From Ehretia macrophylla (taxonomy: Eukaryota > Streptophyta > Magnoliopsida > Boraginales > Ehretiaceae), in NCBI GenBank assembly GCA_037974665.1, contig CM075773.1, positions 49,492,080-49,556,079 of the forward strand: DNA of 64,000 bases, given 5' to 3'. Positions 8,603 to 34,486 of the stretch are shown here, piece after piece. Under the pieces are notes generated by a model. It saw only the letters and a list, made by a program, of their open reading frames with translations. It was not told the DNA's origin and searched no databases. Both the position numbers and the translations under genes were made by a program. Every line of letters starts with the position of its first letter. Within the stretch, counting starts at the first letter, position 1.

Positions 8603-9469
8603 AAAAGGGTTTATAAGTAAAGTACATCTATGATCTTGTTCCATAAGAAAATAAGTAATGCTATATGGAGGGACGTATTCAGAATTATTATTTAATTCAA
8701 GCTGACAATAAGTAATTTAATATTCATATATAGATAACTTATTCAGAATTATTATTCACTTCAGGCTGACAGCAAATAATTTGATATTCATATATGGATA
8801 ACTTTTTCCAGTTGAGTTAAATTAATTTTTCTATTTCTTGCGTGTACCAATTGAAGTATTAACCTAAAAAATGTAACCACAACTCACTCTTTAATAACTC
8901 TACTCTTGGAGGGGGCTGCAACCCTGCTTCTTGGTGAATGGATCCACACTTGATTATATGTTACTCCGTATGTGATACTTATATCATTCACCTTTTATGC
9001 GCCTCAAATTTACAAATTCCTAGGGGTCCTCAGGCCCTACTTAGTTAAGTGACAATGAAAAGGTGTCATCGTTGAGATTTGATTTCTCGCCTATGTCACT
9101 TTTGATGAAGCAACTCTATATGATTTGTCATTTGTTCAGATAAGACTTGGAAAGGTGACACATATCTATCAATGCGTTTTTTTTTTTCTTTCAAATAAAT
9201 TGATTCCATTTATATAGGATTATTTGATATAAGATGCCAAATAAAAAGTAAAATTGGATAATATAATTTGGATGATATAAATCATTAATATAAAATACAA
9301 TGGTTTGTTGTCTGTGTGGTGCTCAATCGACACTCCTTGAAAGTTCCGAACATCCAAATAAAATTATTAATTCACACCTTGTTTAATTGCCATTTGCTAG
9401 CAAACTAACCTCTCTAGGAGATGAGTTGAACTAATTACTCTTTCCATTTCAAAATGAGCGTGAACCTTT
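8603..9469. other. AT-rich intergenic DNA
   Basis: Contains a short tandem similarity (TTCAGAATTATTATT and following bases, at about 8676 and 8740). No gene or bounded element recognised. Confidence 0.4.
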
Positions 9470-10856
9470 TTTTCTTTAATTTTTTTTAAAAAAATCTAAT
9501 TTAATTTTACATCACAAGAATATCGTACACTTTTAAAATTAATTTTAAAATTAAAATCAAGTCACAGACCAAATGACCAGTAATAAATAAATATGCACTT
9601 CCTGATTGATTGTACCAACTTCTAAAATAATAATCTACATAAAATTTCATTTCTTTGGGGCACTAATGTCCTGTTGTATAAGTTTCAAAAGAAAACCTAA
9701 GGCCCCACTCTATACCTTGTATGACACAATTTCTAAGTCTATCCTTTCATGTACATCACATGCCAGTGTGAAAGTGGACATTCATTCTCCGAACAGAGGA
9801 ATGCGCGTTTTGGGTAAACAGTGCCAAAGGAAAAAGTGATAATTGCCACCCTTATGGAAGATAGCAAGTGTTTCAACCCGCCACTGATCCTAACATTTTA
9901 TTGGCTTGCATGGTCAACATGCCTAGATAAATTTATTTTTATTATTATTATTATTTTTTTGATCTAGTAAATTAGTAAAAACGATATACTTTGTAATGAC
10001 GGAAAAAAATTATCGGCCATTCAAAAGGACATGTGATGGATGAAGTGACAATCCACTAAAAAAAACTACTTGGCTCTCAACTCAAAATGAATTATCTTTC
10101 TCTTCTTAGTGCCTTGGTATATTCTTCAAAAGAAATATCTTATTTTAACGTCACTAAATTTTTCACTTTTAAGAATATTCCAGCTGATTCAATTAATAAG
10201 GAAATCATGTATAGATTAATTAATTAGTTTCAGATGATCTTTCCAGCTGATATGTACATATAGCTATATAAGTATAAAATTTGAAAGTAAAGAAAATTAG
10301 TTTTGCAGTTAATTTATGCGCTACGTTTCCTATCCATGAACTACCTTGTTTTCTTTGTTTCCCCCCTCGACTACTTGATATGCCCTGCATGTTCAAACTA
10401 AATTCATATAAAATCTTGGGTTCTTGCTCAAGAGTTTTTATTTTACTGTGTTTGTCATATATAGTTTAGTTGTAACCATGGGTAGGCACTTGGTCTACAT
10501 TTTAATATCAACTAATTAAAGATATTCCCTCTATCTTCTGAGAACTGAGTATCTTGTCCCAATGTTTTTGCACTAGTTAAAAGTTTAATGTAGAGATTTT
10601 GAGTTCGAACTATGATTTTAGCTTCCGTTGTAACAAAAGGAAGGAAAAAGAGTATCTTTTGGCACTAAAGTGCAAGACTTCTTTAAGCAATACATACTAA
10701 TTACGAAAAGCAGAAATAAATTTTTTGATATGACATATTTATATTATGGAACCCTATAATTAATATTTTCTTAGGAATTCATTAGGAACTCGGAATAAGA
10801 GTCCTTTAGGGATTAGGAATAATTAATGTTAATTATTAGGGTTTCCTAACAATTTA

Positions 10857-11275
10857 TGAAAGTGAAGCATGCCAATGAACTTACTTATTTTTTGTTTGTG
10901 GTCTACATATCAATCTTAGTCACCAAAAACCTATATACATTCATTTATTGGTTATTTGAAATCTTACGTCCAAATTAAAATTTTCATGGATATAGTGTCT
11001 ATCTTAAGAATATCATGAAAACATAGCAATTAAAAGCTTTTTTATGATCAAGTACCCTAACGATTTTTCGAAATTGAAGTATGACATTGAAGTTATGCAT
11101 TCTTTTTTTATAATTACATATCAATTTTAGTCACCAAAAACCTATACATATTCGTTTAGTTTTTTGAAATCTTGCATCCTAATTAAATTTGTCATGGATA
11201 TAGTGTCTACTTTAAGAAAATCACGAAACATAGCGATTAAAAACTTTTTAAAGATCAAATATCAAAATATTTTTT
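10857..11275. repeat. Tandem repeat, two units of about 215 bp (copy 1)
   Basis: Both units contain CACCAAAAACCTATA, TTCATGGATATAGTG or TGTCATGGATATAGTG, and AACATAGC-ATTAAAA in the same order. Copy 2 has three units (38398-39020). Confidence 0.8.
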
Positions 11276-11800
11276 TTAATTATATTCATGGGAATCACAT
11301 TCCCCTCAAGAATGTGATCCCCCAAAATGAAAAATCATTATGTTAACCAAATGTCCCCTTAAAGTAAAGTAGGCTTACGTTGGCCACATTAGTCCTTTCT
11401 TCTTCTTCTTCTTCTTTTTTTTTTTTTTCTTTTGTGTCAATTCCTCACATTAGATTTTGTGTTAGTTAGATGACATCGTTAATACTGATTTCGACGTAAA
11501 TTTGTTATCCTAGTATTCAATAATTGAGCCAAAATAAAATTTTAAAAAAATGGTATTCATTAGTAGTGAAGCATAAAACTGTAAAAATGCCTTCTGCAAA
11601 TTGTTGGCAAAAGTGAAAGAGATGTGAACTTTTTCAAAACTCTGCAAGAAGCTTCGTCGAAGCTTCATGTGGTGATGACAAACACCTTCCAAAATAAATA
11701 TTACCCCCTCCCAAGTCATAGCCTCCTATCCCCCTATTGGATACAAAATACTAGCTAGCTCTTCTCACAATCCTTTGTTACAATAAATTCGAACAAAGAG

Positions 11801-12334
11801 ATGCATATAGACTGCGTTGCCGATTCAAGATTTGCACTTCCACCAGTGATTAATATCTTGGTGTACCTCGTCCTGTATTCTGAAGCAGGCAATAATAATA
11901 TTTGGGATAGTGATGAAAACCCACCAGCGAAGATGGTTTTACTCATCCTTGGCTTCATCGCCATCTTTCTTCTCATATCTGTCAAAGTCAAACTCTCCCT
12001 AAGGCTAGTTGCAGATCGCATCAGCTTGCAATTTGGAAACTTCGAGTTTTCGCCCACCCTTTCAACGTTATTGCTGGTATCGTTTCTCCTCCCACCACCA
12101 CTCTTTTGGTATGCTTATCTCGTTTGTGTTATCATCTCTCCGTGGTCCTCTTCGATCTTTCGCATGCTTGGGCGTTTCGTTCGAGAAATTCCTACTTGCA
12201 TCCTCAGTTGCTACCCTGTGCAGCAAGAAGCCACTGACGACATTGCGCACGTGATGAAGATCATGAGCTTGCTCTTGATAACCAACAATATTTTCCGAAC
12301 CAACCGCCAAATATCGCAGAGGGCGAACGCGTAG
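11801..12334 (+). CDS. Unknown small multi-pass membrane protein, copy 1
   Basis: An ORF of 177 codons that I do not recognise. Hydrophobic segments lie at about residues 16-27 (VINILVYLVLY), 45-61 (MVLLILGFIAIFLLISV) and 86-112 (from TLSTLLLVSFLLPPPLFW), so two or three membrane passes are likely. The basic stretch KVKLSLRLVADR sits between the last two. The ATG at 11801 opens the longest frame; the internal ATG at 11933 (MVLLILGF) is the start shared with copy 2. After IAHV copy 1 lacks 10 bp present in copy 2. Its last 28 residues are therefore out of frame, while the copy-2-like tail (NQPPNIAEGERVEILYGHA) stays readable in another frame. That points to recent protein coding in the ancestor and possible decay here. 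A single exon is assumed; introns cannot be excluded. Confidence 0.5.
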   Translation: MHIDCVADSRFALPPVINILVYLVLYSEAGNNNIWDSDENPPAKMVLLILGFIAIFLLISVKVKLSLRLVADRISLQFGNFEFSPTLSTLLLVSFLLPPPLFWYAYLVCVIISPWSSSIFRMLGRFVREIPTCILSCYPVQQEATDDIAHVMKIMSLLLITNNIFRTNRQISQRANA

Positions 12335-12794
12335 AAATACTGTACGGTCATGCATAATAGATTCTGTACCATGACCGTATAAGCAGCCGCGGAGCTACAT
12401 GAGACCGAACGGGAGTTGCAAAAAATGTTAAAATTTTATGTATTTTTAGTTAAAAAATTCATTAACCACCACTAAAAAAATATATGTTTATATAATTAAA
12501 ACATTATTTATTTTAGTCCCAAAAGAATTCATGAATCCGCTCAAGTATAAGTTGTTATACGCACTATACGGTCATACTTCATTGTTATCACGTTTGTTGT
12601 AAGTCAACCTCTCACTCTTTGTATTAAAGGATCTCTCAGTAAGAAAACTTTTTAAAAAGTTTGACTCAGCGGTCTATTAAAACTTTTATTTACATGAAAT
12701 GGTCTCTACATGTATTTGGGCCCCCCATGTTTTGTAAGTAAAATTCATGACTGACCGGTCAGTTAAATTTTTTTAAAAATTTTCCCTCTTAATC

Positions 12795-13560
12795 ATCTAT
12801 AAGAACGAAAGCCAACAATTATAATGTCCTCGTTATTTCTGTATAATTATTTTATAATTTATTATTATTGAATGACATAGTGAGCAAATCAAATATAATA
12901 TTAATGTTATAAATACATTTATTCTCATTTGTTGACCCCTCTTGGCGTCTGACAGCTTTTTGGGCTCAGGTGATCAAAGTCAAAAAGTATAAATTTTTCA
13001 AAGTAGAAAGCCGTTGGTTTTAGTGTGGTCTGAAATTATATCTTTTTATGGAAAAGTACTAAAACGACGCAGTTATAACTACGATAAGACAGATGTTGAC
13101 ATGATTACGAAAAGATAGACATCCTTTATGTCCTTATATTGAAACTTCTTCTAAAACAAAAAAGGAAATTTTTTTTATGAGCCATGTAATAAATTTATCA
13201 CAATCACATATTAAATTGTGTTATATGTCAAGTTATTATTTTATGAGATTAATTTACGATAGTCTGTATTATACAGACATGTCATGTTAAAATATCATAA
13301 ATTTTTTTTTTTTTTATTAATTTTGTCTTACAGAGTTTTAAATAAATTACTATAATATTCCAATTTATGACAATTAATTAATATTTGTTAACTAATTAAA
13401 ACACTTTTTATCCATATATCACATAACTCATAGAAGAAGAACCAACAAATAAATAATAAAAGACGCAGTCATGAACTATGAAAAGACAGATTTCGAATCA
13501 TTGCGAAAAGAAAGCTTTTCCTTTTTGCTTGTCATTGACTCAAACAATTGGTTCATTACT
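12795..13560. repeat. Segment with a duplicated block of about 90 bp (copy 1)
   Basis: GACGCAGTTATAACTACGAT (about 13064) and GACGCAGTCATGAACTATGA (about 13463) head two versions of the same block; copy 2 also has two (about 45290 and 45680). No coding similarity was recognised, although LGSGDQSQS-like reading survives in copy 2. Confidence 0.55.
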
Positions 13561-13645
13561 AAAAAACAGAAAGAGTGTTCGGTTGGTCTTAGCAAAAAAT
13601 TGTGAGCGTACAAGAGGGAAATTGAGGGTGGAATTTCGCTACTTA

Positions 13646-14448
13646 GAGCAAGGCTAACAGCATCGCTATCCTACTTCCTTAGCCAAAGTAACGAGCCAAA
13701 TCAACTTTTTTTCCTCCAACAGGCTCTTTACTCCCCTCGCCAATTTTTGTCCTCTCGCCATTCCGCTGTACTACTTCACCAGATGTGGCGAGGAAGTCTT
13801 GCTCTCCATTTCAGTCTCAAATGCAACAATGGTCAACATTGACCATTGGTCTTTCATCCAAAACATATATTTCAACCCAAACTGTGTTGTGGTTATAGTG
13901 TTTTGAGCATTTTGTTTGTAAATGTTGGAGTGGGTTCTTACTCAAAATTTAGTTTTTTTTTTTTTTGTTGATGCTTATATTCTGTTCAATAAAATGCCTG
14001 ATAAAATTTTGATTACTTATCCAAATGAGCTGTAGTGAGTTGTAATGCTTGAGCTGTGTGTTTATTCAAATCCGAATGTAATGGTTGAGTTGTGGGTTTA
14101 TTTTGATAGTCTCTTTGGTCATTTATCATGATTCAGGTTTGAATTTTTCTAATTTTTAGTTTTTATTCGTGTAATTTTTTTCTATTTTATATAATCTCTA
14201 CTCATAGATTTCCTCTAGTTTGACTCTCTATCATGATTCAGGTTTGAATTTTTCTATTTTTCTAAAAAAAGACGTTATTAAATAAGTTTAGATAAAATAT
14301 AAAAAGTTATTGGAGTGAAATTAAATAGAGAGTCTGAAATAAAGAGTGTTATTGGAGTAAAACTGAAATAGAGAGTCTGTAAAAATAAAGAATTGCTAAT
14401 TTGACTCTCTATTATGAAAAAAAAATAGAGAAGCTGTTGGACTTGCCC
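13646..14448. mobile_element. Tourist-like (PIF/Harbinger) MITE, copy 1 only
   Basis: TIRs GCAAGGCTAACAGCATCGCT and (reverse complement of the right end) GCAAGTCCAACAGCTTCTCT, flanked by TTA on both sides (13643-13645 and 14449-14451), the PIF/Harbinger target. About 803 bp, no ORF. Copy 2 has a matching unfilled region near 45975, so insertion followed the duplication or was never shared. Confidence 0.75.
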
Positions 14449-14563
14449 TTATATTAGTAATACATGTTCTAAGGCTTTGAATTAAAAAAGAAAAAAAAGT
14501 AAGCGTGGCTCTCAATCGTGCTCAGCCCAGTACCTTTAATTAGTTTGTTTAGTACATATTATA

Positions 14564-14569
<6 letters not shown>

Positions 14570-14638
<69 letters not shown>
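14570..14638. repeat. (TA)n microsatellite
   Basis: About 33 uninterrupted TA dinucleotides. Absent from the matching part of copy 2. Confidence 0.95.
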
Positions 14639-14640
<2 letters not shown>

Positions 14641-15379
14641 CACAAAAAAAAAAAAAAAAGACTGACCCAACTTAACTCAGCTCGTGACCCATGATAGCGG
14701 GACTCGTGGACCGAATTAAGTCCTGTATTTTAAAAAAAATGAGTTCAATTCACCTCAATTCACTAAACATCTGTGCCGAGTCAAGCTCAACTTTTTCGAC
14801 CTATGACTCGATAAAGCATGGTGAATTGTACCAGGCTAGTCCATATGCTAGCTTTAGTCACAACAAAAAGATGTGAGCGCTCTTGAAAAAAATACGATAT
14901 TCAATTTTATTAATTAAATTTGTAATATATATTATACGATTTTAAATTTAAAAAAAAAAAAATAAACGTCGCGCTCAGCCATCTAGGTCACATGGTTTTG
15001 TTTGGAAGCTTTTCTCTTTTTGACTTTTCTATTTCCAAGGATAGAACAGCTTTGTTAAGAGAATTTAGACTGGGGGCCACACTTTTGGTGGTGATCGTCA
15101 CTTTGTGGGCCACATCTAGTCACAGTTGCTTGCCCAGAAGTCAAGAAAAAGAGAGTTAAAACGTTACCTTGAAAAACGTGCCAGCCGACATGCAACTTAT
15201 TCTTTTATTTGTTTGAGTCGAAGAATGGATTAGAGTTGCCTCTGATAGGATGTCTACAGCAGTGGACTGAAACTTATGTAAAATCGTATTTTTTTTTTTT
15301 TTGGCATCATTTAGCACATCACATTTTTTTCAATTTTATCCAATTTTGTTAGTTACATTTGTAATACATGTTTTGTAAT

Positions 15380-15876
15380 ATATATTTTGGTCCCCATTAG
15401 TTTTGGTCCCATCTTTAAAAATCATACAGTTAATCCCATTTTTAAATTTTGGTCCTCATTAATTTTTAATATTTCGTCGTTGTGATATTTTGCTCTTTAA
15501 TTTTTTAAAAATGAACCTTTTAGTCTTTAAAATCAATTTAGTAACCCTTTAATCTCCATAGCAAAATCCATCTATTTTTTATGACTTTATCACATGGCTA
15601 ACACATGATGCCTTACCAATCAACATGCTGCAACCTCAACCAACAATACTGATAGCATGATATTAATCCGCAAGCTGCAACTTCAACTAACAGAATTGAT
15701 AGCGCAACTTTAATAATAATGTGTCAATCACATGATAATGCCGTAAAAAAATAGACGAGTTTTACTATGGTTCCCACTATATCAACTTTAAAGACTAAAA
15801 TGTTCATTTTTAAAGATTAGGAACCAAAATTTCACAACGACGAAACATTAAAGACTAATAATGACATTTACTCAAT
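15380..15876. mobile_element. MITE with TTAATTTTTAATATTTCGTC arms, copy 1
   Basis: The left arm (TTTTTAATATTTCGTCGTTG) pairs with the right arm (CAACGACGAAACATTAAAGA) and continues through TTTAAAAATGAACCTTTTAG against its complement. The orthologous element in copy 2 is 46487-46884, so it predates the duplication. The left edge is blurred here by a local duplication of the arm. Confidence 0.65.
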
Positions 15877-16837
15877 TGTTTTTTATTTGACACAAAAAAA
15901 AAAAATTACAACGTCACCAGTCACATGAATACGAGTGAGAGGAGTTGGGTTTTAAAACATTGGGCCACATGAGAAACATGTACAAAACACAAACTCCCTA
16001 ATTATTTGGAACGATTATTGAACTCAAGCTTTCTTTCGGACGAGAGTCTTAAACTTTATTTTTGGTTGAATTTTGTTATAATTTGTTTTGTGAATATTCT
16101 ATTCACTGTTTATAATAATTCATGTGGCATCTTGGATTTTTGTTAGTCTTGAAGTTAATATGTGATGCATGTTCTGACACCAAGTATCTAAAATATCTAG
16201 CTGGAAACCAATATAGATGGAGTGATACCTGAAGGAGGGAGTCAAGTTTTATGCTTTGAGGATGGTTCATGGTCTCTGTCTTGAAGGTAGGTAGAGAAGA
16301 GATGATGTGGGCCTGAGAATCGCAAGTGTACTGCAAATGTTCGCACCTCCTGCCCAAGAACCCTCAAGCCGCTACAAAAGTTCAAACCATTTGCCTCTTA
16401 TCATCTATGTCTACTACCTAGTCGACCCCTATGTCCTAAATGATTATACCTGGCAGCTTTTGTAAGATATCTCGAATCCAAGAGTTACCTACCTAAAAAA
16501 GAAAAAAGAAAAATCAGCATTTACGGGTGAAAGAAGAGAGAGATAGGACCAATTAAAATTCTCGAAAACCAACCATCTTACTAACCCTAGTCTTTCTTAG
16601 TACGTAAGCTTAGTAGACAATAAGATAAATATTAAATATCATTTAATTTTTATTACTCATTTATTACTTCTCATATGTTTGTTTAATTAAACGACATATA
16701 AAAAGAAGAGAAAAATAAAAAAGTTAGTATACCCAAAAATTCGGTATATAAAATAATTAAGACTTGTTATAATCAAAAATTAATTTTCATTCAAATCACA
16801 TTTTTGTCTCTATTATATAAAAGAAAATAATAAAAAA

Positions 16838-17066
16838 TTAATTATTTTGCATCCTATCTCGATGTACGCGTGGTACCCAACCACCTAAAGAAATTACATT
16901 GTAATTGTGATTAGGGTGCTGGAAACGCTACCTATCGTGATTCTTAGCACAAAATTTTTGACCAGGAATGCTGTATAGTGTTCATGCCGTGTAGCATCTA
17001 ACCAATGGCAAAATAAGGCCTTCAAGCTGGCTTGATGAAAAATTCCATGCATTAAGAGTTAAGTAA
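16838..17066. other. Substitution-free conserved non-coding block, copy 1
   Basis: From ATTATTTTGCATCCTATCTC to TTAAGAGTTAAGTAAA every base matches 48458-48716 except one 16-bp tandem duplication in copy 2 (in the AATGGCAAAAT stretch). Sequence on both sides shows many substitutions and indels. No ORF spans it. Two possible hairpins are visible: GTGCT/AGCAC at 16916-16950 and ATGCT/AGCAT at 16968-16997. Function unknown; it could be a promoter, a non-coding RNA or a gene-converted patch. Confidence 0.6.
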
Positions 17067-18249
17067 ATTGCCAAAAAGTGATCCGTTAAAATAAGATGTT
17101 ATGTGTTTAAATTAAGGTTTCGAACTTTATTAATAAAAAATATATAATTTTTGACAACAAAAAAAGGGTTTGATGAAATTTTATTGTACCTTTTATGGTT
17201 TCCTTTTTTTTTTTTTTTCTGTAAGTTTTCTCTGAAAACTTTCAATACGTCCAATTTTTCAATTTTCCTCTTAATATTTTCACTACTTGGTACATCAAAT
17301 TCTTAGTTAATTTCATTTTCACGTTCCTTCCTAGACTATAATCGTCTCTTTCATCTTCTGACTCACGTTCTCATTATTATTTTTATTATTCAAAATGTTT
17401 TATTGTTCAAAATCAGAGATTAAAGTATGAAAAATGGAAGAAACATGAAGGCAAAATAGTATCACCAGGTGGTTTTTTTTTTTTTTTTTTTCTCTTTGTA
17501 TATGAGAACGTCCTTGTAGAATCATTACTGCAAGTTCACCAAGTTTACTTCTGGTCTTCGAAGCTCTATCTCATGGCTATTGGCATACCTAGTTCGCAAC
17601 AAGTTTCAAAACACAATTCCCATTGTTCGATTCTTTTCAGATATTTTATTGTTGTTTTCTTTCTTTTAATTGTTTTTTTTAGGACGAAGAATTCACTTTA
17701 AATAAGATTATATCGAAATCACCCTCAAAGTTTTAAATTCCGTGGTATAGGATGAGTCCCAACACATACTCTAAATCATTCAAAAATTAGACAATTATTT
17801 GTGATAGAGAATGTTCTAAAATGAAACATTTAATCGCAACAAGTCTACTTTTTATTGTACTAAAAGAAAGAAGAAAATTTATGGAGAGTTGCAACAACTT
17901 GAGGCAAAAAGTTTACAAGATACGAATCAGTGTATAGAAGAACCCCCTATATCATACCTTCAACAATTCTACGTCAAATCATGGCAATGCAACTAAGGAC
18001 AGTAAGCAGTTTGAGTGCACTCCCTGAGTTTGGATGTCTAGATCCGTCACCGTAAATGAATATAGACATATTCGGCTCATAAGTTCATGAATAGTGTTCG
18101 ATGATTATAATATATACATGTGTTTGTGTATGTATATATGTATGTATGAGTGAACATATGTATGAATTTGTATATTCATGTTGATATATGTATATTTGTT
18201 TCTTATAAATTATATGTATTTGTATATAAGTACTAGCTATTTACCAATG

Positions 18250-18644
18250 GGATAAAATAGTTTTATGACCACTACGCTATCTCTTCATTTTTGTTATGGC
18301 CATTCAATTATTTTTAGTCTTAGTTTGGTCATTCAACAAACAATTGAGTTTTATTTTGGCAATTCTATCAATTTTTCTAATAAAATAGACTACTTGTGAA
18401 GGGCAAAATCGTAAAATTAGTTAAATAAATTATATTTTTTCCACCATTTTAAATTTATTTGCAAATTTAATTGATTGATTTTACGAATTTACCCTTAACA
18501 GTTAGTCTATTTTTACCAAAAAATTGACGAAATGGCTAAAACAAAACCCAATTGATAGTTGAATGACCAAAATAGGACCAGAAAAAGTTAGATGGCGAAA
18601 ACAAAACTGAAGAGATAGTTAATAACCATAGAAAGATTTTACCC
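18250..18644. mobile_element. Mutator-like MITE with 9-bp TSD, copy 1
   Basis: Flanked by TTACCAATG at 18241-18249 and 18645-18653. Ends GGATAAAATAG and ATTTTACCC; internal arms repeat TTGGTCATTCAAC-type units in inverted order. The same element sits at 49870-54733 in copy 2 (there filled by later insertions), so it was present before the duplication. Confidence 0.75.
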
Positions 18645-21600
18645 TTACCAATGAAATGCATAAAATTTCTTTATTAATTGTAAACTTAGTACCAACCTTG
18701 CTCCAAGTTTAAGTTTTAATAAATTCTCTTTTTTTTTTATTATTATTACCAAGTAAGTACGTGCTCCATGATCAATATCCTTACATAGTATCACTTACAA
18801 ATTAACCTATTTAGAGAGTTGCCACAAAATCGTTGGTTCACAGTAAAGTCTATAGCACAAATTGATCTGAAGTGTAGATCGTTGTGAGGTCTTTTAAATT
18901 TCAGAAGTGTGGTTATTTCCTAATTTGACCATGAGTCACGTTTTCAAAATAAATAAATAAAAATCCAAGTGCGCACACACATACACATGTTATATTATAC
19001 ATACATTGTGGGGGGTAAAATGATATTAATTTAACATTTTGTAGTTGATGAGTATGTTAAATACCCCTAGCCTTTTCGAAATTTCTTGTTTTGGAACATG
19101 GTTAGGTTGCTAGATTTGTTATAATCTATTTTGGAAAAAAATGTATGTTATATAGTAAAAGAATGATGTTGGAACGGAGACATATAACTTATGGATGCAA
19201 TTGTAAAAGAATGTTTAATGTATATTTTAGTTGCGTTGTATGTTGTTAACTTGATTGTGGAGTTGGTTGTATGATGTTCCAAAGAAGTTGGTTTAGAGCC
19301 TCGGTATCCAAGTTACTGTCGTTATACTACCATAATTTCGTTGCGTCCTGACTGATCGTAGGAGGGGTTGAGTTGGGGTGTGACATTAAGTGGTATCAGA
19401 GCGCATATTTAGCTGTCAGTCGGGGTATCCTCGGAATGTGGGTAGTGGTCTAAGCATGCAAGTATTTATCAATTGAAAGAAAAGTGAAACATATGTTAAT
19501 ATGTTTATGTGATTAATTTACTTATATGTCTAACTTTCTATGTGATTAATATGCTTTATGTGTTAAGTGAGTCAATATGTTTTATGTGATAACGTGTCTT
19601 ACGTACTCAATGTGTTGTAGTTAATATGCATTTTGTGATTAATGTGTATTATGTGACAAATGTGTTTTACATGATTGAAGTGTCTGTGTGAAGTTAGTTA
19701 TTCATGTGGTTTTAATTGTTTATAACTAGCTTATGTGCAACAACGTGCTTTAGGTGCTCAATGTACTTTAAGTGACCAATGTGAGTTACGTGATCAACTT
19801 GTCTTATGTGAAGTTTGTTGCTTATGTAACTTTAATTGTTTATAACTTACTTATGTGATATAACCTGTTTATGTTATGTTGCCTTCTTATATGCTGAATT
19901 GTGTGTTATGTGATAATGTTGTAATATATGATAATCATGTAATATGTTGGTACTTGTTTCATGAGATATAATTGTATATATGCTATAACTGTGGGTGATT
20001 CTTTTGGGTGAAGTAAGGATGACTGCAAGAGTTTTCGGAAACAGAGGTAGGCCATGATTTTGAATTATTATTATTCTAGTAGTTTATTAGTGAGATTTTG
20101 ATTGTTATGTTTATGGATTTTAGTCTCAGTTTAATGGATCTGTTCTTGATGTTCCTTTAGCGAGAATGAAGTTGTTGGAGGAAATAGCAATATATCTTGA
20201 TGATTATAATTACTTTTCTTGCCCTGTTTAACTTCTTATTACTTGGAGATGGATCATAAGTTGAGGTTTCCGTGAGGTTGTGATTAGATACTTTTGGAGT
20301 CTCAACTCAGATTATACTTTCTTGAGGTTATTTTAGAATTAATTTATTTGAGGAATTAGTGATGTATATTTGTGAATAGAATGAAGTGTGGTATAACATG
20401 TGAATATTTCTACTATTTGGGATTGCTATATTATTAATGGATATTTTGGAGTTTTGATCTTTAAACCTTGGAGACAATTGGAGTAATTCCTGACTAAAGT
20501 TACTTTATTCGAAGATGTAATTGTTGGGAGAAATAATTATTTGAGAAAATAAGAATGCATTTTGGTGACTGAACATTTACTTGCCTACATCAAACTTTTG
20601 AGTTCTAGGTGGTATGACTTTCTAAATTGTTGATTGGGGATTCTCTTGTGTTATAATGGGTTAGTATGAATCTATATTGTGTTATCAGATTTTGGAGTCT
20701 TCATCAGTCAATCTTGTTGGGTACTTGGTGATTTATCTTGTTTAGTGATTGGTCTGGTGCAGAATATAAATTTTGGAGTGATTGTATGACTCCTCAGGTT
20801 CTCTAGATCTCCTTAGTGTCTTGTTTTGAAGGGAAATAAATTGAAAGATTTGAGTTGTTGTGTTTAAGTGTGTAGGTGGGACATTCTTCTTGTGCTTCAT
20901 AATTTTATCGGTCTTATTATTCTCTTTTACTCTATTCTCACTTATTTGAGAGAGAGTTACAATTTTTTAGCCTATCAATTTATTTCTTGAAAGTTTGCTT
21001 ATAGGATTAATGGATCCTCTAGTCAATTGACATTGTTTCTATTCTTAACATTCATATTTGCTTCTTATAGCAATGTCGCTTATTGGAGTTAAGGTTTGAC
21101 ACTTCTATATTTCATTCTATATCTCCAGCCATTGGTTTCAATATTTCATTTCATCCTATTATTGTTCATTTTAAAGTAATTTTTCCTTTGGTATACCATT
21201 TTACTTGATCGAATTTCACTGGCTTGATGTACTCCTTACCTAAGTACATCATTGTCATTCTTGTTGATCTTTGCTAATCCTATTATTTTATTATTAAATC
21301 CTAAGCCATTACTTTACTTGTAACTGCTCATTCAATATACTCAGCACTGTCCTTTCTTATTTATACTTCTTTGGTTATTGCGTGCTGAGATACTCATTAT
21401 CTTGACAATCATATTGATGGGTGCTTAGCTTAGGATAAAATTAAGGTCAATTCTAAGTCAAGTTTTAACTCGCAAGTGCACGAGTAATTGTAGCGTAGTG
21501 TGCTAGTGCGAGGTCGAATCCACAGGGAGGCTATTTGAAAGTTTGTAGAAAAGTGTAAGTAAAGTGCCTAAGTAATTAAACTAAATTAAATTGTAAATTG

Positions 21601-24463
21601 TATGATTTGAATAAAAGTTAACTAAAAATAAAATAAAAGTGAAATTAAATGCGAAAACTAAAATTAAATATGAAAGTGGAAATTGAAGTTTGATCACTAT
21701 TGGGAAAGATTTAGGGATCGGATTCCTATGCAAAGTTGAATTCTAGGCACGAACTTAGGATTTCGTATTTTGATGCAAAATTAGACTACAAGCCTAATTA
21801 ATTAAATAATCACCTAAAGTTAACTAATTAACGGGTTAGACCTAGTTTAGAGGTGCAACGCTATCTCCAAGTCCTTTATCTAGCCGGAGTGTAGATTTGT
21901 CCTAAAATCCTAGACAAACACATTAACTAATTAAGTGAAGGAAAACTATGGTACAACCTATAGTTTTCACAATCAATCCCAATTTATATATTTGATCTAC
22001 CATATGAATTCCTATTAATTACTAGCTACAAGCATAATAATTAATAGAATAAATAATAAAGCATGTAAATCAAATATATAAGATTAGCATCAAAATAATC
22101 CAACCAAGTTCAAGACCATAAAATTAAATTATTGCATAGTAATCCTACCCTAAACAATGAATTAAGTGTTCATGTTCAACAAAACTGAATCAACATTATA
22201 AAAAGAAAATAAATTAAACTTCTCCATAAATTGATTTGAATATGTTAAAAATAATAATTTAATCTGAATCCCAACTGAAAATTGAAGAAGAATTTATGAA
22301 AAGAAATAAACCGAACTTGCTGCTGTTTTTTTTCTCGTTGTCAAAGTTTTTTTTCTCCTTCGCTGCTCACTGGTTGCTCTCTGCTTTTTTCCTTTTCTTT
22401 GTTCTGTGCTGCAACTCATATATATCTCGCGTCTGCTGCTGTGCTGCTTTTATAGAAAAATTGCACCGCCCTATTCATGTGTTGAATGGGCTTACTTTGC
22501 TGCCAAAAAAATAAAAGGCCATGTGGACCAAGGCTTTATTTTATTATTTGTGTAAGTTAAGTCCAAATTGGACTTGTTTGGTCCACGGTCAAGGCTTGTA
22601 AGCCTTGATCAACTTTATTTTCTTTTTTTTTTTTTTTTCTTTTCTTTTCTTTTTCTTTGCATTTCTTTCACCATCTTTTGATTCTTCCGCGAACAATTCT
22701 TTGTTAACATTTTTTTCATCCAATTTGACTCCAAATCTTCTTTCATCATTCAATTCCTACATGCACAAAAAATGCAATTAAAGTGATCAAACATTATAAG
22801 TAATATGCATAATTAATTCTAAAAAGCAAAGAAATAGGCCTAAAAATATAAATATATCAACACTCCCAAACCTACCTCTTGCTTGTCCTCAAGCAAGACT
22901 AGGATCTAAGCAAATCTCCAAGTTATCAGGACGTTGCTCTAATTAATCAATCAACTCTAGTAAAAGGACAAGGTTCGGGGAACAATTGATCCTATGGTGT
23001 AGTAGTGAAATGAACTCATTCAGATTTCTCTTTAAAGACAAAGCATGTTTACTACAAAATTACACCAAACACGATCAAGTCTCCACGTAACTAAGCAGCA
23101 AGACAACTTAATACAATTAGATCATAATACTTGCACCCCCATTGCCCTTATAATCCTCCATACATGCCTTTTATCCTTTTTCCTAGAACATAAAAGTAAA
23201 CATATTTCATCTCTCTTTATTAGGTGATTGGTCCCTGACGGTAACACCCAACACCCCATGTAACGAGCTTTCGAGGACATCAATCCCAACCACTTAAGGC
23301 TTACGTTGATAGGCTTTGAAAGGCCCCATGCATACCCTACTTGCTCGAAGTGTTGAGCACCGAAACACCACACACCTTAAGCACATATCCCTAAAGATAG
23401 ACAATAAATATAAGGACAGTGGTGCTAAGAGATAGAAGTAAAGAATTTCTTTTGTTTTTTTTTCATCATTTTTTTTGTTTTTGTTTTTTTCTTCTCTCTT
23501 TTTTTTTTCACTATAAAGGCTCAGGCACACAAATAAGACTACTCAAGCGAGGGTACTCATATCACAACCACATTATATCACATCATCTTACAACCAAGTC
23601 ATGGGACCACAATAGCCTAGGCATAATCTCACAGTCTCCACGCCTCGTATTCATCAAAATCAATCCTAAAAATTCAACTCAAAACTACCTCATAAAATCA
23701 AGAACCACCTACTCTCCTCAATCACTTCATAAGAGCTAATCAATACACCATCACAACTCCTCAATTACCAGAAAATCTATCTCAAATCCACAAATAAACA
23801 AAAACATGAAAAAATATTTTCACATTTTTTTTCACATTTTGTTCAAGTTTTCCCCAAAACAATAATGGACACAATTAAACAACCACACCCCCAAACCTAA
23901 AGTTTGCTTGTCCTCAAGCAAATAAGAGTAAAACATGCTTAGGGTTTGCGAAGGGGAAAATATCAGATAATGAGAACCCAATAGTGAAAATGCATGAATA
24001 GAAAACAATTAAGAGAAATAGAGGGAGTAGATGGACATACCTGAAGTGATCGATAATGAAAAGAAAGGTAACATTTCACATCTACAACTTGTAATTAAGC
24101 TCAAGAGCAAAACGATAGAGAATAAGGCAAAATAAAATGAAAATACAATAAAATAATAAAAATATTTTTTACTTTTTCATTTTTTATATATTTTTTTGTT
24201 GGCCGACCCTATTTACATCCCCATACAAAGGCTCCGAACTCTGGGAGGCACTAAAGCCGACTCACTAAAAATAAATAAGCACAATAAAACAATTTAAATA
24301 AAGAGAGCTAGAATGCAAACACCTGGATCCATTTAATGTCAGCTAGTAAGACAAATCTTGTGAAACTTCAGAAATGGAGTTAACTAAGTACATTATAAAT
24401 GCGGAGGAGAGGCCATTAATTTCAAACCAAAAACGTACTCAAACCCCAGACATCTTCCCATAC

Positions 24464-26746
24464 TTACGAAGGAAGGCCAGGCATTACGCTTTCGGCCAGT
24501 GATTTTACTTTCATAGTATCCATCCTAATTAACCCCAAGACTTCCATTACACAAGATAATCCATTTTCGAGAAAATGGTAAAGCCCACTATAACCCAGTT
24601 CATTACACAGGATGTATGATCTAAACTTATCAAGGGAGAAAACTACAACTAGTAATTCCTTTTCTGTGGTAGTGTAATTCTTTTGAGCATCATCTAAGGT
24701 CTTATTAGCGTAGTAGATCACACATGGCAACTTATCCCTACGCTGTCCCAAAACAGTCCCTACTGCGTAGTCGGATGCATCACACATAATCTCAAAAGAG
24801 AGGCTATAATTGGGAGGCTGGATGATAGGTGCGGAGGACAATAAAGACTTCAGCTTCTCAAATGGCTTGGCACACTCGTCATCAAAATAAAATGGAGTAT
24901 CATGTGCTAGGAGGTTGGAGAAGGGTCGAGCAATGTGGCTAAAGTCCTTGATGAAATACCGGTAGAAACTGGCATGACCAAGGAATGATCTAACGTCACA
25001 CACTATTTTTGGTGCTAGGAGTTTCTCTATCAACTCAACCTTGGCTGGGTCTACATGGAGACCATCCTGAGATACAACATGACCTAGTATTATCCCCCGT
25101 CTAACCATGAAATGACTTTTCTCCCAACTAAGCTCCAAATTCATCTGAACATAACGCTCTAGCACTAGGGAAAGGTGTGTGAGACACTCATCAAATGTAG
25201 CTCAAAAAACTAAAAAATCATCTATAAATACCTCTAGAAACTTCTCAATCATATTAGAAAAAATGGCCATCATACACCTTTGAAAGGTCGCTGGTGCATT
25301 GCATAAACCGAAGGGCATACGACGATAGACAAAGGTCCCATATGGATAAGTGAATGTGGTCTTTTCTTGGTCCTCGGGGAAGACTAGGATCTGATTATAC
25401 CCGGAATACCTATCTAAGAAGCAGTAGTAGCCCTGTCCGGCTACTCTATCTAATATCTGGTCAAGAAAGAGTAACGGGAAGTGGTCCTTCCGGGTCTTGG
25501 CATTGAGCTTTCTATAGTCAATACAGACACGCCAACCAGTAGTGGTGTGCGTAGGAATAAGCTTACCCTTATCATTAGGGAGTACCGTGATCCCAGACTT
25601 CTTCGGTACCACCTGCACCGGACTGGCCCATGAACTATCAGAAATCGGGTATATGATACCCGCATCAAGCAGCTTAATGACTTCCTTATAAACAACCTCA
25701 GTCATGTTTGGGTTCAGCCTCCTTTGCATCTCGCGGGAAGGAGCATCACCCTTTTCTAAGTGAATCCGATGCATACACAACAAAGGGTCTATTCCTCTCA
25801 AATCAGAAATGGTCCACCCTATGGCCTTTTAATGATCACGAAGGACTCCTAACAATCTCTCATCATGCTTAAAGGTCAGGTCTGATGCGATAATTACTGG
25901 GAGGGTATCATTAGGTCCTAAGTACACATATTTAAGGTGCGCAGGCAAAGGTTTGAGCTTTAAAGTTGGAAGAGACTCAACCGGAGGGGTATCCTGACAA
26001 ATTTTGGATGGAAGGTAGCTAAGAATATCATTAGCCTTGTCAGGACTAGGATCAGAAACAATAGAAGTAGAAGCTACTAGCTCTTTCACGAATGAATCAG
26101 AGTTAAATTGAGTCAAGATTGTCTCAAGCTCTGCGAGCTCATCATTGACAGTCAACATTGAATGGGCATGTTCCTCAACACAAGGGTCAATGATATCAAC
26201 CAGGAAGCACTCATCCTCAGAATGTCTACTTACTCGATTAGCAGCCTCTGCGACCCTCACCTTAACTCTTATATTCCCAAAGGTTAACTCAATCATCCCT
26301 GTCCTACAATATATCACTGCATCAGCTGTGGCCAGAAAAGGTCTCCCTAGAAAAACTGGTGTTGCATGCCCAGTGTCTAGTCCTGAGTCCATGTCTAAGA
26401 CAATGAAGTCAACCGGGAAGAGAAATTTACCAACTCTAACTAAGACATCCTCAATTATCCCTCTAGGTCGTCTCTCAGATCGATTTGTCAACTGAAGTGT
26501 AACATTTGTGGGAGTCAACTCCCCCAAACCTAAACGCTCATATACTGCAAATGGAATGAGATTCACACTAGACCCTAAGTCAAGGAGGGCATGGTCCACT
26601 TGTTGATTTTGAATGATACAAGGAATGGTGAAGGCTTCGGGGTCACTAAGCTTGGGCGGAAGGCCCTTAGTGCATATACTACTCAATTTTTCTATGAGCC
26701 TCACCTTCTTTGGAATGTGGGTGGATTGCCTCTTCCTAATGCACAA
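24464..26746 (-). pseudogene. pol: Athila-type pol remnant (protease, reverse transcriptase, RNase H)
   Basis: The protease-like part shows the aspartic-protease-like DLGSSVNLIP and the downstream FLGRPFLATADAVI. The reverse transcriptase shows SWASPVQVVPKKSG, WRVCIDYRKLN, DRYSGYNQI, MPFGLCNAPATFQRCM and the FIDDFLVF catalytic region. RNase H begins at FEIMCDASDYAVG and TTEKELLVVV. The integrase part is not seen. Fossil, broken. Confidence 0.88.
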
Positions 26747-27299
26747 GTGTTTGAGGAATTTGGCATAAGTCGGTATCTACTGGATAACTTCAATAAGAGG
26801 CAGGTTTATCTTAATATCCTTCAAGTGGTCTAATACCCGAGACTGTTTATCATCTTTCCTAGGTCGCTCTAAAGCAGTAGGATAAGGCACCCTAGGAGGA
26901 CTATCATCACTGTGATCTACAACCTACTTCTCATCTTTCTGTGAAGGAATGGTGTTTTCTCTACTATTCTCTATTTCATCTCCCAACTCACTTCCTACTC
27001 TCTCAACCTTTTCCTCAACCTCTTTTGTATCCCTACTCTTGTCACTCGCTCTCTTTTCTCCATTAGACTCATCCACCTGATTATCTAACTGGTAACCACT
27101 CCGAAGGGTGATAACAGCTTTGGTTGCTCATGGGTGGTCTCATTGTGGACATTGTTACACTGGCCACGTGGATTCTCGACAGTCCGAGCAGGGAGCTTAC
27201 CCTCATCCCTCCTAGTAATTTGTTGGGCCAGTTGCCCAACTTGAGTTTCCAACTTAGCAATAGATTGCTGCTGAGCATGAATTACTTGAAGTAACTTGT

Positions 27300-28623
27300 C
27301 AAACTTATCATCAGGCTTGTTAGGAGGAAGATGAGGGCTAGGCTAAAATTGATTCCCTAGTTGTGGTTTAAAGTGAGGCCCATTAGACACATGATAATAT
27401 CCAGGAGGATTAGATTGAGGCTTTTGCACTTGAGCCTGCGAAAATGAAGGGTCATGATTTCCTTGACGCCATGAGAAAGCTGGATGATCTCACCAACCAG
27501 GATTATATGTATTCGAATATGGATTGTAATTGCGAGAATAACCCTGGGCAGCATAAACCTGTTCCTGAATAAATTCAGGGAACTGAGAGGCAAGAGGACA
27601 CCCTAGTATGGGGTGGTCCACTGCAGAACATAAGGCACAACATTGAACATTTGGTAGGGCAAGTGAAGAAGTAGACCCTAAAGATATAAACTGATCAAAT
27701 TTCTTGGTCAAAGCTGCCACTTGTGAGTTTAAGTCCCCATTTGTGCTCACCTCATATAGTGTCCTCCTAGAAGTGGGCTTACCCATTCTATCCATTGTTG
27801 AGTCTTGAAATGAGTCTTTGGCAATACTGTCAAGTCGGGCCCATGCCTCATTTAGGGTGAGGTTATAAAACCCTTCATTACTCATTGAATTCACCATCGT
27901 TTTCTGCTGTGGTGTCAATCCTCTATAGACATACTGAAGCAACCTAGGTCTATCGAACCCATGGTGTGGGCAGTGACGAATGAGTTCATTAAACCTATCC
28001 CAAGTTTCATGAAATGACTCTAAATCGGACTGGGAAAAAGTCATGATGTTCTCTTGAAGAGATGAGGTCAGGGCCATCGGAAAAAATCTAAATAGAAATT
28101 GAGTCAACAGTTCTTCCCAAGAAGTAATGGTTCCCTCTTCAAGGGAATGAAGACATTCTTTAGCTTTGTCCTTAAGAGAAAGTGGGAAGAAACGCAATCA
28201 AATATTTTCTTGAGTAACATTTTGAACATGCACAATGGTACATATCTCAAGAAAATCACGAATATGCGCATGTGGATTTTCATTGCTTTTCCCGTAAAAT
28301 GATGGAAGTATTGCTATCGTACCAGGTTTCATGTCAAAGTCCACATTATGGATGGCAGGTGGTCGGATAGCAATATTCGGCTGATATGTGGTCGGGAGAA
28401 AATGCTGCCTAAGAGGTATATCATCAGGATCAGGATTATTGGGGACAATGGGAAGTTGGGGAATCCGAGGATCATTAGCATTTTGAGGCACATTCAGATT
28501 TCCTTCATGCTCCGCCATGATTGTAGTTAAGACCTTCTGATTCCTATGGTGTGGGATTCTTTGTGGCTCGGGGTCAAAGGGTTCTAAAGGCAATCCTAAA
28601 GAACGACGTCCAAGCATACACAA
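27300..28623 (-). pseudogene. gag: Athila-type gag remnant
   Basis: Nucleocapsid/capsid precursor region of the nested element. PLSLKDKAKECLHSLEEG, FFPMALTSSLQENIMTF and HETWDRFNELIRHCPHHG are the conserved plant gypsy gag block, followed by a CCHC knuckle (CALCSAVDHPILGCP). Fossil, broken. Confidence 0.85.
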
Positions 28624-31154
28624 AAAGCCAAACTAATGGGAAACTAACTAAATTGCAATAAAATCCTAAAACTAGAAATAAACTATTTAAGTAAAATAAC
28701 CAACTAGGAAACAGATAAATAAATAATGAATCAATAAAATAAATGAACTATTGAAAGAAAAAAAAGAAATAAAATTACTAAAATAATAAAGAAAAAAAGT
28801 AAAGAATTCAAGATAATTATTTAAACTAAACAACTAATAAGACAATCTAAAAATAATAAAGCAAAACAAGAAAAAGAGAATTTTTTGCAAAAATAACTAA
28901 TTAACTAAAAACTAATACTTAAACAAAATACTATACTAGTCCAAAAACAATACCATGCCTCCCCGGCAACGGCGCCAAAAACTTGATTGGTGCTTAGCTT
29001 AGGATAAAATTAAGGTCAATTCTAAGCCAAGTTTTAATTCGCAAGTGCACAAGTAATTGTAGCGTAGTGTGCTAGTGCGAGGTCGAATCCACAGGGAGGC
29101 TATTTGAAAGTTTGTAGAAAAGTGTAAGTAAAGTGCCTAAGTAATTAAACTAAATTAAATTGTAAATTGTATGATTTGAATAAAAGTTAACTAAAAATAA
29201 AATAAAAGTGAAATTAAATGCAAAAACTAAAATTAAATATGAAAGTTGAAATTGAAGTTTGATCACTATTGGGAAAGGTTTAGGGATTAGATTCCTATGC
29301 AAAGTTGAATTCTAGGCACGAACTTAGGATTTCCTATTTTGATGCAAAATTTGACTACAAGCCTAATTAATTAAATAATCACCTAAAGTTAACTAATTAA
29401 CGGGTTAGACCTAGTTTAGAGGTGCAACGCTATCTCCAAGTCCTTTATCTAGCCGGAGTGTAGATTTGTCCTAAAATCCTAGGCAAACACATTAACTAAT
29501 TAAGTGAAGGAAAATTATGGTACAACCTATAGTTTTCACAATCAAGCCCAATTTATATATTTCATCTACCATATGAATTCCTATTAATTACTAGCTACAA
29601 GCATAATAATTAATAGAATAAATAATAAAGCATGTAAATCAAATATATAAGACTAGCATCAAAATAATCCAACCAATTCAAGACCATAAAATTAAATTAT
29701 TGCATAGTAATCCTACCCTAGACAATGAATTAATTGTTCATGTTCAACAAAACTGAATCAAAATTATAAAAAGAAAATAAATTAAACTTCTCCATAAATT
29801 GATTTGAATATGTTGAAAATAATAATTTAAACTGAATCCCAACTGAAAATTGAAGAAGAATTTACGAAAAGAAATAAACCGAACTTGCTGCTGTTTTTTT
29901 TCTCGTCGTCAAAGTTTTTTTCTCCTTCGCTGCTCGCTGGTTGCTCTCTGTTTTTTTCCTTTTCTTTTTTCTGCGCCACAACTCCTATATATATCTCGCG
30001 TCTGCTGCTGTGCTGCTCTTATAGAAAAATTGCACCGCCCTATTCATGTGTTGAATGGGCTTACTTTGCTACCAAAAAAAATAAAAGGCCATGTGGACCA
30101 AGGCTTTATTTTATTATTTGTGTAAGTTAAGTCCAAATTGGACTTGTTTGGTCCACGGTCAAGGCTTGTAAGCCTTGATCAACTTTATTTTCTTTCTTTC
30201 TTTTTTTTTCTTTTCTTTTTCTTTGCATTTCTTTCACCATCTTTTGATTCTTCCGCGAACAATTCTTTGTTAACATCTTTTTCATCCAATTTGACTCCAA
30301 ATCTTTTTTCATCATTCACATGAACAAAAAATGCAATTAAAGTGATCAAACATTATAAGTAATATGCATAATTAATTCTAAAAAGCAAAGAAATAGGCCT
30401 AAAAATATAAATACATCACATATTTTCTATTGAATTGATCATCTCTTATTTCTTAATTTTATCTTGCCCAAGTACAACTTACTTGTTGGTTCCTTGAACA
30501 ATCATCGAGAATTGAACTGTTTACTTGTTTATGAATGTTTGTTCAACATACTCAGCACTGTTTTGACTCGTCATCATCCTTTGTTCGTACCTACTTAGCT
30601 GATAGTTGCTGAGACATTCGTTGTCTTAGTTATCACACTTTCTTATTAAACTATTAGCCACTTGATTCTCTAACTTGTTTGACCTCTTGTTCACTTGATT
30701 GTTGGCTCGAATATGACTTTTCATATCCTTATTTCCTTATAAATTTCATAAGAGCCATATTCTGATCAATGTCACTTTTGAGATATTCCCTTGATTAGTA
30801 ATCATTCATGTTATCGTGAATGAGTTTTTAAACCCTCGGGGTGTTCATAGAGCTCTTTTGTATAGTAGGGGATGATTGATAAGTAGCGGTGTCATGCTAA
30901 GACCTTGAAGTTGCAATTTCTTTCATATGCAATATGATGTTAGGTGGGAGAGAATTATGAATTGAAGATTGTCTTGGAATTATGATCATCAACTTGCTGT
31001 CAACAGAGTTTATTTCAATTGCGGTCTTTGTTTAGGTGTTATCCTAAGAGATAAATGGGAATTAAGAGAAGTATTATTAAGTGTAACGATTGAGGATTTA
31101 ATTGTCTGTCAGTTCGAGAATTGCGCGGACGCAATTTCTTTAAGGGGGAGATAA

Positions 31155-33779
31155 TGTGAGACCCCATATTTTGTCTTTACTTTGATTTGCGTGTTTTGTC
31201 TCGATTTGCGTGATTTGACCTGTTTATATGTTATATGAGTTAGAATGCGCTAATTCTGTGATTTATATTCCTATTACATGCTAAGTGTGCATTCATGAAA
31301 TTTTTATTAAAAACGGCATTGAAAATTTTATCGTCAGTTTTTATGAATAGTATTTTGAATGCACGTCCGCTAAAATTTTTACATAGGTGTTTTAAACGTC
31401 TTCAAACCTAGTCCTCTATTATTAATAGACCCATGTTTGAAAAAAAATTGATTCTGAAATGGAATAGGAATTTAAATAGATTTTTCGGGCGAAAAGTAGC
31501 ATTTTTGAGCTAAATGGTGATTTCTTCTAAACCCGATTCTTGCATTGACTTTCGTTGACCTAGTATATATTAATATAAATGTATTTATATGTGGTATTAA
31601 ATGATTTTAGATTAATTGTGCATTCAAAAGACATTTGAAAACAAATAATATTACTTTTCACCTTTTTTTGCAAAAATCGAGTTTTTAACCGAGTCGGGTG
31701 TAAGTCTATGCATGTGAAACTTTTTGTCACTTAAAAATATACTACTTAAAAATATTCAAAGTGTTAATTGCATTTGGGTGAACAAAAATAGGATAAAAAT
31801 AATTAAAAGACTAAAAATACTAACTTTGACTTTGCAAATTTTGTTGACCTTGAGCTTATATCATCAACACACATTAAAAACAAAACAAACACACTCACAA
31901 AATACACACATTACCGAAAATCCATGAGGGAGAAGAAAGAAGGCATTTTCAAGGTTTTTCAAAACATTTTTCACATAGATTTTGCAATTCAAAGCCGAAT
32001 TAAGTCATTCAAAGATTGAATTCACTTGTTGGGCTTCCATTCTACATCTTTCTTGCATCAAAACACATCAAAAGTGAGATAAAAATTCTAGATCTCAAAA
32101 TGTGATGTTTATGTTTTTGCATATAATTGAATTTTGAACCGTTAGAATGTTGAATTGATGTTATATTATTGTTCAGTGCATGCTAAGGATCGTTTATATG
32201 TGGTCATATAAGTTTTGAATCGTTGTAGCATGAAGTTTTATTTTTCGGGTATTAAAATTGAGTAGTTGGCTATTTGTTGAATAATTGGAGTTGTGGTGGT
32301 TGGAATCGATTGCTGTTAGATTTTAAAAGTTTGTTAAATACGTGGTAGTGATGTTGTAATGCCGAAATTTTGATTGTGATGTCGGTGTGAAAGTCCAGAA
32401 ATTTCAGCCATGGTGCATTGAGGTTTTAGGGTTGTTGGGCTTGATTTTTATGGATTATGGTTGGTTTCCAATGAGGCTAATGTTGTTGATTGAGTGGGTG
32501 AGTGATAGAAATTTGTTTGGAGGTTATTGGATTAGTAGAATGTAAGTTATGACTTTTAGAAGTTCGGTTTGTCTTTCTTTAAGATGTTGAATTATGCCTT
32601 TCGATGTTTGGGTGGTGTTTGAGTGAATGAATTGAGAGTTGCTGATGGTTAGACTAGGGTTTGGTTGTGTGTTAATGCGTGTTAAGTTGGATGACCTACT
32701 TTGTCATCTAACTTAGTTGTTGTTGTTTATTTGATTAGTTGTTGTTATGTTGTTAAAATGATGATTATTGATTGATTATTGATGAACCGGGAGATAGGCA
32801 ACCTACTTTGTTGTCCTCCTATGATAATTGGTAATTGATGAGCCAGGAGATAGTCAACATGAAAGGTTGTCCTCCTGAGATTTGAATGATTATTGTTATT
32901 GTCATGAGTCTTGATATATGTGTGCCACCTCTCGGGCAGCGTCGGGCTGTCGGGTTGAAAACGGCATGACTATCATAGGCTACCCCCAGCTCGCATGATG
33001 GAGGTGTCATGGAGGGAAGGGCTCGAGAGGTACCTCGGGTGCATGAGTAATGGGGAGTTATAAGAAGAACGCTTGAGATCATGATGACATTTGGAGCTAC
33101 ACCAACTAGAGTATCCTTTATTGATTGGTCATTATAATTAATGTGCTTATATTGTTATTGATGATTATTGTGTATTTACTGCTCAAAGAATGATTTCTAA
33201 GGAGTATAGTAAATACTGTTAGAGATCTATTGAATCCTTACTGGGCTTGTTTTATATAAGCTCACTCTCAATTATTGCATGCATACAGGTGATATTAATC
33301 AAGATTACGGATACGTGCCTCAGAAGCTAAGAATGTGCTTTATGTGTACGGGTCTTGGGTGCCGGAGTCGTTGCCATGAATTTGTCTTAATTGTTGTAAT
33401 ATGTTATATTGTATAACTTACTCAATTATAAGACTTATGTATATTGCTAATTTAGTAGTCTTGTTTTGGAACATGGTTGGGTTGCTAGATTGGTTATAAT
33501 TTATTTTGAAAAAAATATATGTTATATAGTAAATGTATAATGTTAGAACGGAAGCATATAACTTATGGATACAATGGTAAAAGAATGTTTAATGTATATT
33601 TTGGTTGTGTTGTATGTTGTTAACTTGATTGTGGAGTTAGTTGTTGATTTGTGGAGTTGGTTGTACGATGTTCCAAAGAGGTTGGTTTAGAGCCTTAGTA
33701 TCCAAGTTACTGTCGTTATACTGTAGAAATTTCGTTACGTCCTGACTGATCGTAAGAGGGGTCGAGTTGGGATGTGACA
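31155..33779 (+). repeat. 3' LTR of the LARD-like element
   Basis: About 2.6 kb, TGTGAGACCCC to TGTGACA. Its last about 320 bp match the 5' remnant at 19084-19385, with one extra short tandem (GTGGAGTTGGTTG type) at about 33630-33662. No ORF with recognisable similarity. Confidence 0.8.
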
Positions 33780-34486
33780 TCCGAAACCAGATTTTAACAC
33801 ATGAAGCATAATGATAATATAGAACTAAAATCTGTCATCTCAAATTAGCTAGCCCAAGAAGGATACAAAATTAGGAGAATTAATTAACCTCCCTAAGTAT
33901 CAATCCAACGACACAAAAAATAGACCATAAAGATGACCTACTACTTTATTATGCTAGCTGACTTTACATCTGAACACCTTGGTTGAAATTCAGAAGTGCA
34001 GTAAAGGTTGAGGGAACAAGAATATTTTGGTAAAAACATTTGAAACTTGATAACAACATGTACCAGTACCCAAAAAAAACAGAGATGGCAATAAACAGAT
34101 CCTATTGTTCAATCTTCCCTTTTTCTCTTTTTCAATTTTTCTTTTACGCAAGGATTTCAGGAAGAGAGGATAAGCTTGTCTACATTCTGAAAATTAACTA
34201 TTTATTTCATTTAAATTGCAATGTAACTAAGAAAATTAGAAATATCTAAAGGTTAAGATATCTATCACAAAGTAAAACTGTTAGACATAAACTTACATAT
34301 TTTCTTTTCCCCCGAGTAGATTGCAGCAAACAACAATCAAGATATGTAAAGAAGTAATCGACATAGACCACAAAAGATAGCCACTATACCTAGTTAGTAC
34401 TCATTTATCAGTTCCAAGGAAGCATCACTACATATAAGTCTTTCAGTATATTGAAAAGACCAGTAAATAAGGCACACGAGAAAACT
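33780..34486. other. AT-rich segment, probably intronic sequence of the captured eRF3 fragment
   Basis: No exon recognised. CACTACATATAAG occurs at about 34428; it begins like a CACTA terminus, but its neighbour triplet (CAT) does not match the AAA at the right CACTA end, so I do not call it the left end. Confidence 0.3.

Follow-up and report, generated by a model that had tools for sequence, protein, structure and literature searches.

A substitution-free non-coding block in a diverged tandem duplication, tentatively read as a gene-conversion tract

Introduction

Long identical runs between duplicates are the signature used by GENECONV-type tests of gene conversion, as set out in passages of PMC3966223, which count 526 conversion events in 7829 duplicate pairs of C. 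elegans and suggest that the proximity of linked paralogs may favour the process; exchange within a plant gene family is the subject of PMC6771003, as its cited portion presents it. A second described system is that of the plant conserved non-coding sequences (CNS), for which excerpts of PMC4202324 report a drop in A+T at the border, small on average (flanks 56%, elements ~54%), and mention an earlier comparison of Arabidopsis with grape in which only 36 elements reached at least 85% identity over more than 55 bp. Box H/ACA snoRNAs, a third, are defined in passages of PMC4660826 and PMC8575768 by an ACA that lies three residues ahead of the 3' end, past the second hairpin.

Here we describe a block of DNA that recalls each of these systems in part. 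Like an interlocus conversion tract between tandem paralogs, it is a long, sharply bounded run of identity in linked duplicates that have otherwise diverged, but its edges fall near those of an island of differing base composition, and there are two copies here, with no third copy or outgroup to give direction or date. As in plant CNS, the block is non-coding, unusually unchanged, and marked by a fall in A+T at its border; however, its conservation is known from two paralogs of one genome, it has no known target gene, and its A+T drop is far larger than the reported average. With box H/ACA snoRNAs it shares a pair of short hairpins as well as a hexamer of the ANANNA type, but it lacks an ACA box, a significant fold and an Rfam match.

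Results

The window, by which we mean the whole stretch of 64,000 nucleotides analysed here, is AT-rich (33% GC) and looks like plant nuclear DNA by its gene content. Fragments of a gene for the casein kinase II beta subunit lie on the + strand at 1369-1701 and 2593-2892 (Pfam CK_II_beta, both frames scanned), and retrotransposon open reading frames (ORFs) with gag, protease, reverse transcriptase and integrase domains (Pfam) occur in the window. Self-comparison reveals a direct, tandem duplication broken up by insertions, with unit A at approximately 9441-19084 and unit B at approximately 36504-55183, the latter including an inserted element at 50028-54088. The units are ~90% identical, and their longest homologous stretch, 16189-18392 against 47853-50012, contains the block, whose two copies stand ~31.6 kb apart. 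The element in unit B has 449-bp end repeats, 94% identical, and begins ~15 bp past this stretch. The homology of unit A ends at 19084, the first base of a 300-bp direct repeat (19084-19386 and 33459-33780, 85%); the repeat pair surrounds a second repeat-bounded element at 21414-30418 (end repeats 96%), and the whole of 19084-33780 looks like a nested retrotransposon insertion. Directly past unit B is a small Prolamin-like ORF (55629-55988, Pfam), which has no counterpart among the listed self-matches longer than 120 bp.

Global alignment of the two members of the longest stretch places the block at 16839-17070 in copy A and at 48467-48715 in copy B, with not one substitution in 232 aligned sites where ~21 would be expected at the ~9% divergence found outside. 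The sequence-only reading had reported just such an unsubstituted patch amid frequently substituted flanks, and the alignment bears it out on both counts; its start in copy B, given as 48458, lay nine bases too far left. The stretch as a whole carries 170 substitutions in 2117 aligned sites, and its longest substitution-free run after the block spans 89 sites. When substitutions were placed at random, none of 20,000 trials reached a run of 232 sites (maximum 198); a block bootstrap drawn from the sites outside gave 0.0002 with 50-site blocks and 0/20,000 with 100-site blocks. Identity along the stretch, which the same reading had proposed as a check, separates under change-point segmentation (one penalty setting) into three segments, diverging by 13.0% on the left, 0% in the block and 7.1% on the right. 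In three further aligned parts of the units, taken outside the repeat-rich 10643-11454, divergence is 9.9%, 18.8% and 9.5%, and the longest free runs are 38, 44 and 46 sites. The zero-substitution patch is thus confirmed as a real observation: the duplication, its 9% background and the sharp quiet tract are all seen directly.

Could base composition alone keep such a block quiet? We tiled the aligned parts into 45 tiles of 75 sites, leaving aside the 18.8% part and 10643-11454, and set apart the four tiles that touch the block. Divergence is the same in the 18 GC-rich tiles (123/1350) and the 23 GC-poor ones (157/1725), 9.1% each, so that composition offers no explanation and was ruled out as a cause of the low divergence; none of these 41 tiles is free of substitutions. 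The second-quietest part of the homology region, at ~17345-17578, has five substitutions in 226 sites, and Pfam matched neither of the frames scanned in it (17342-17698 and 17520-17666).

The copies of the block do differ by two gaps, one of 16 bp at 17003/17004 and one of 1 bp near 17065, within the A run that lies by the right edge, both adding to copy B. The larger had been noticed from the sequence as the only difference and as a tandem addition; its size was right, but it is an indel at 11-bp direct repeats rather than an exact tandem, and the 1-bp gap makes a second difference. In copy B the additional bases can be placed at 48632-48647, an arbitrary choice within the repeat. Because AATGGCAAAAT occurs twice there, 16 bp apart, and once in copy A, a single repeat-mediated deletion in copy A would explain the gap most briefly.

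The same gaps bear on the reliability of the sequence itself. Tandem copies this alike are difficult to assemble, and assembly or polishing may have put sequence of one copy in place of the other; yet the flanks diverge normally on both sides, and the gaps of 16 bp and 1 bp between the blocks show that they are not plain copies of one consensus. We regard such an artefact as improbable. Even less probable is that a small mobile element was recently inserted into both copies. The block does differ in composition from its flanks and holds a 9-nt inverted pair (16842-16850 and 17008-17016), but short inverted pairs are numerous in this AT-rich stretch (at least 12 were listed), no target-site duplication was visible by eye, and there is no sign of independent insertion: both copies have the block at the identical site with both flanks aligned, which makes transposition unlikely. 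Nor did self-comparison turn up the block anywhere else in the window. Selection, gene conversion and a transposed patch had all been offered as causes in the sequence-only reading; the first two still stand, while the aligned flanks in both copies speak against the third.

Beyond the window, we found no homolog of the block in plasmids, and one pattern scan each of genome contigs and of viral contigs returned no match to its pattern, all three being collections without plants. A 17-mer of the block did match eight viral contigs, but the best similarity was the same 18 bp in all eight and the remainder had E values of 0.5 or worse; we therefore take these matches as chance and do not count the contigs as homologs. 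A search of 5.39 million papers with six short strings found no printed occurrence of the block's sequence.

In its extent the block is almost the same as a GC-rich island. GC in copy A is 38% within the block against 15-22% across the adjoining 100-150 bp on each side, and the maximum-likelihood GC-rich segment is 16849-17085 (0.41 inside, 0.19 outside, tested over ~16600-17250), its edges lying 10 and 15 bp off those of identity. Plausible positions are 16843-16860 for its start, a range that leaves the identity start at 16839 just outside, by 4 bp, and 17030-17105 for its end. The corresponding segment of copy B is 48477-48730 (0.40 inside, 0.20 outside, tested over ~48220-48900), and its contrast is weaker, 0.10-0.11 against 0.12-0.17 in copy A by the smaller-contrast measure. 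Between 0.5 and 4.4% of random 232-bp placements have a GC contrast as great as that of copy A, a range covering three flank lengths, two measures and three regions for that copy, with placements overlapping the block included. The block of copy A thus has, at its border, the A+T drop described for plant CNS.

A TATATAA, a putative TATA-like element, lies on the + strand at 16814-16820, starting 25 nt ahead of the block in copy A, and its counterpart in copy B (48443-48449, + strand) starts 24 nt ahead. Copy A has two more TATATAA within 16700-17600, absent from copy B. With both motifs chosen post hoc, TATAWA starting 25-40 nt upstream is found for 4.2% of unit A positions, and TATATAA 28-36 nt upstream for 0.8%, the latter spacing being measured to the GC-rich start and not to the identity edge; the usual plant TATA-to-start distance forms the background to these figures. 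Inside the block, motif scan and self match pick out CCAAT-type, CGCG and palindromic motifs. Among them are AACCAATGG (17000-17008, + strand), a candidate NF-Y (CCAAT box) site by match to the consensus string used in our transcription-factor scan, and the dyad AATTACATTGTAATT (16892-16906), found by self match and hairpin fold and bordered by CCTAA and TTAGG.

The block is unlikely to encode a protein. It had been described as covered by no ORF, which is nearly right: the longest ATG ORF in copy A is 52 aa, on the minus strand from 17052, and in copy B it is cut to 28 aa because of the 16-bp difference. It is this break in the sole such frame that makes coding improbable; the 52-aa ORF also has no Pfam match up to E 10. 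The ORF tests comprised Pfam searches with sets of 10, 8 and 7 reading frames, unit ORFs 43251-43553 and 44645-44950 lying outside them, and PDB searches with two. In or near the block they yielded a single sub-threshold Pfam match, at 17820-17993 (E 0.043, 14.2 bits against a cut-off of 22.6), a frame that has a stop in copy B when the alignment is read by eye.

Elsewhere in the units, a small duplicated ORF, membrane-protein-like by eye, lies at 11933-12331 in copy A and 39961-40392 in copy B. Its pN is 0.054 and its pS 0.051 over 106 codons, counts that omit the one codon with more than one change, so that the one duplicated ORF tested shows no visible constraint. A 10-bp gap shifts its frame near the 3' end in copy A; no Pfam family scored above cut-off, and copy A has no PDB match.

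The sequence-only reading had likened the block to a hinge-type small RNA, and this likeness finds no support on closer comparison. Two short hairpins can be drawn on the + strand, the first (GTGCT/AGCAC, 16916-16950) picked by eye and folding alone at z -2.50, with 6 of 200 shuffles folding as well, and the second (ATGCT/AGCAT, 16968-16997) at z -0.67. The supposed hinge ACAAAA (16949-16954), an ANANNA-type hexamer, lies at the end of the first hairpin and overlaps its final two bases. Folding of the two-hairpin core is on a par with that of its shuffles (z 0.04 and -0.48 for its two strands), and that of the whole block slightly better but not clearly so (z -1.00 and -1.43; 33/200 and 19/200 shuffles as good). 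Of 500 shuffled blocks, 141 show the hairpin-ANANNA-hairpin pattern and 57 show it as often as the block does (twice); it is also present in 109 of 275 tiles of the window. As had been suspected, there is no clear final ACA box: the part of copy A's block beyond the second hairpin, from 16998 onward, contains no ACA. Rfam covariance models had no match in the window at gathering score, and a relaxed-score search of 16700-17200 gave two matches only, with E values of 2.5 and 4.5; between identical copies there is no covariation to be read. Given the weak fold, the lack of an Rfam match or an ACA, and a pattern so common by chance, a box H/ACA RNA is unsupported, and we hold it hardly credible that the block is a gene for an RNA of this or any other structured kind.

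Discussion

What, then, has kept some 230 bp free of substitutions between two copies that otherwise differ at about one site in eleven? Two explanations, recent gene conversion and purifying selection, are nearly tied, and we choose conversion, as a tentative preference, quite possibly right yet well short of assured. We posit that a break in one copy was repaired with the other, ~31.6 kb off and ~90% identical, serving as template; that copying over roughly 230 bp would have wiped out the substitutions there; and that the later changes would be indels only, namely 16 bp at the direct repeats and 1 bp in the A run. It would then be a copying event, we infer, rather than selection that made the patch, and no function would be needed for the block. 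Conversion is a known process in linked duplicates, and what we see between these diverged copies is its usual signature, an identical run longer than the divergence of the flanks predicts (0/20,000 shuffles, and three segments with sharp edges by change-point). The block is quiet over its full length, spacers included, no coding or structured-RNA signal was found in it, and the one duplicated ORF tested is without constraint.

Not everything sits easily with such a copying event. Its tract need not follow base composition, and yet the identity edges lie within ~15 bp of those of the GC island; a conversion tract might, however, stop where AT-rich flanks match poorly, and the argument from the island would then be weaker. 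The upstream TATATAA common to both copies goes unexplained. It is slightly awkward, too, that a tract too young for any substitution should already have one or two indels: the 18 gap openings of the whole stretch would lead one to expect ~2 in the block without recent copying. And the comparison rests on two copies, without an outgroup.

Purifying selection on a functional non-coding element in both copies is a serious contender, if a somewhat less probable one. Such an element could act as a module of a promoter or enhancer, or could be the first exon of a transcript, non-coding or untranslated, that starts soon past the TATA-like box. The near coincidence of block and discrete GC island, together with the common upstream TATA-like motif, is what favours it; the border and the non-coding nature agree with what excerpts of PMC4202324 describe for plant CNS, the CCAAT-type, CGCG and palindromic motifs lie inside, and the usual 9.1% divergence is seen in the GC-rich tiles of the rest of the unit. 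On the other hand, having none of ~21 expected substitutions would require nearly every base to be constrained in both copies, within a block that contains a 16-bp indel and in a neighbourhood where a duplicated ORF is unconstrained. The GC contrast is weaker in copy B, and the published A+T drop, from 56% to 54%, is itself small on average in those excerpts, which also cite the earlier Arabidopsis-grape tally of no more than 36 elements. A bolder version, unlikely though worth stating, is of a plant non-coding element of ~230 bp under exceptionally strong constraint, which would have remained free of substitutions in both duplicates while the surrounding DNA, the tested duplicated ORF included, drifted neutrally; it might supply the core promoter or first exon of a non-coding transcript not yet described.

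The two explanations lead to different lessons. If the block was made by conversion, tandem duplicates have given one more small and clean tract, which cautions against taking identity between paralogs for selection. If it is kept by constraint, a 232-bp element free of substitutions in both duplicates, close to an ORF that shows no constraint, would be a notable candidate for a plant regulatory element or non-coding RNA.
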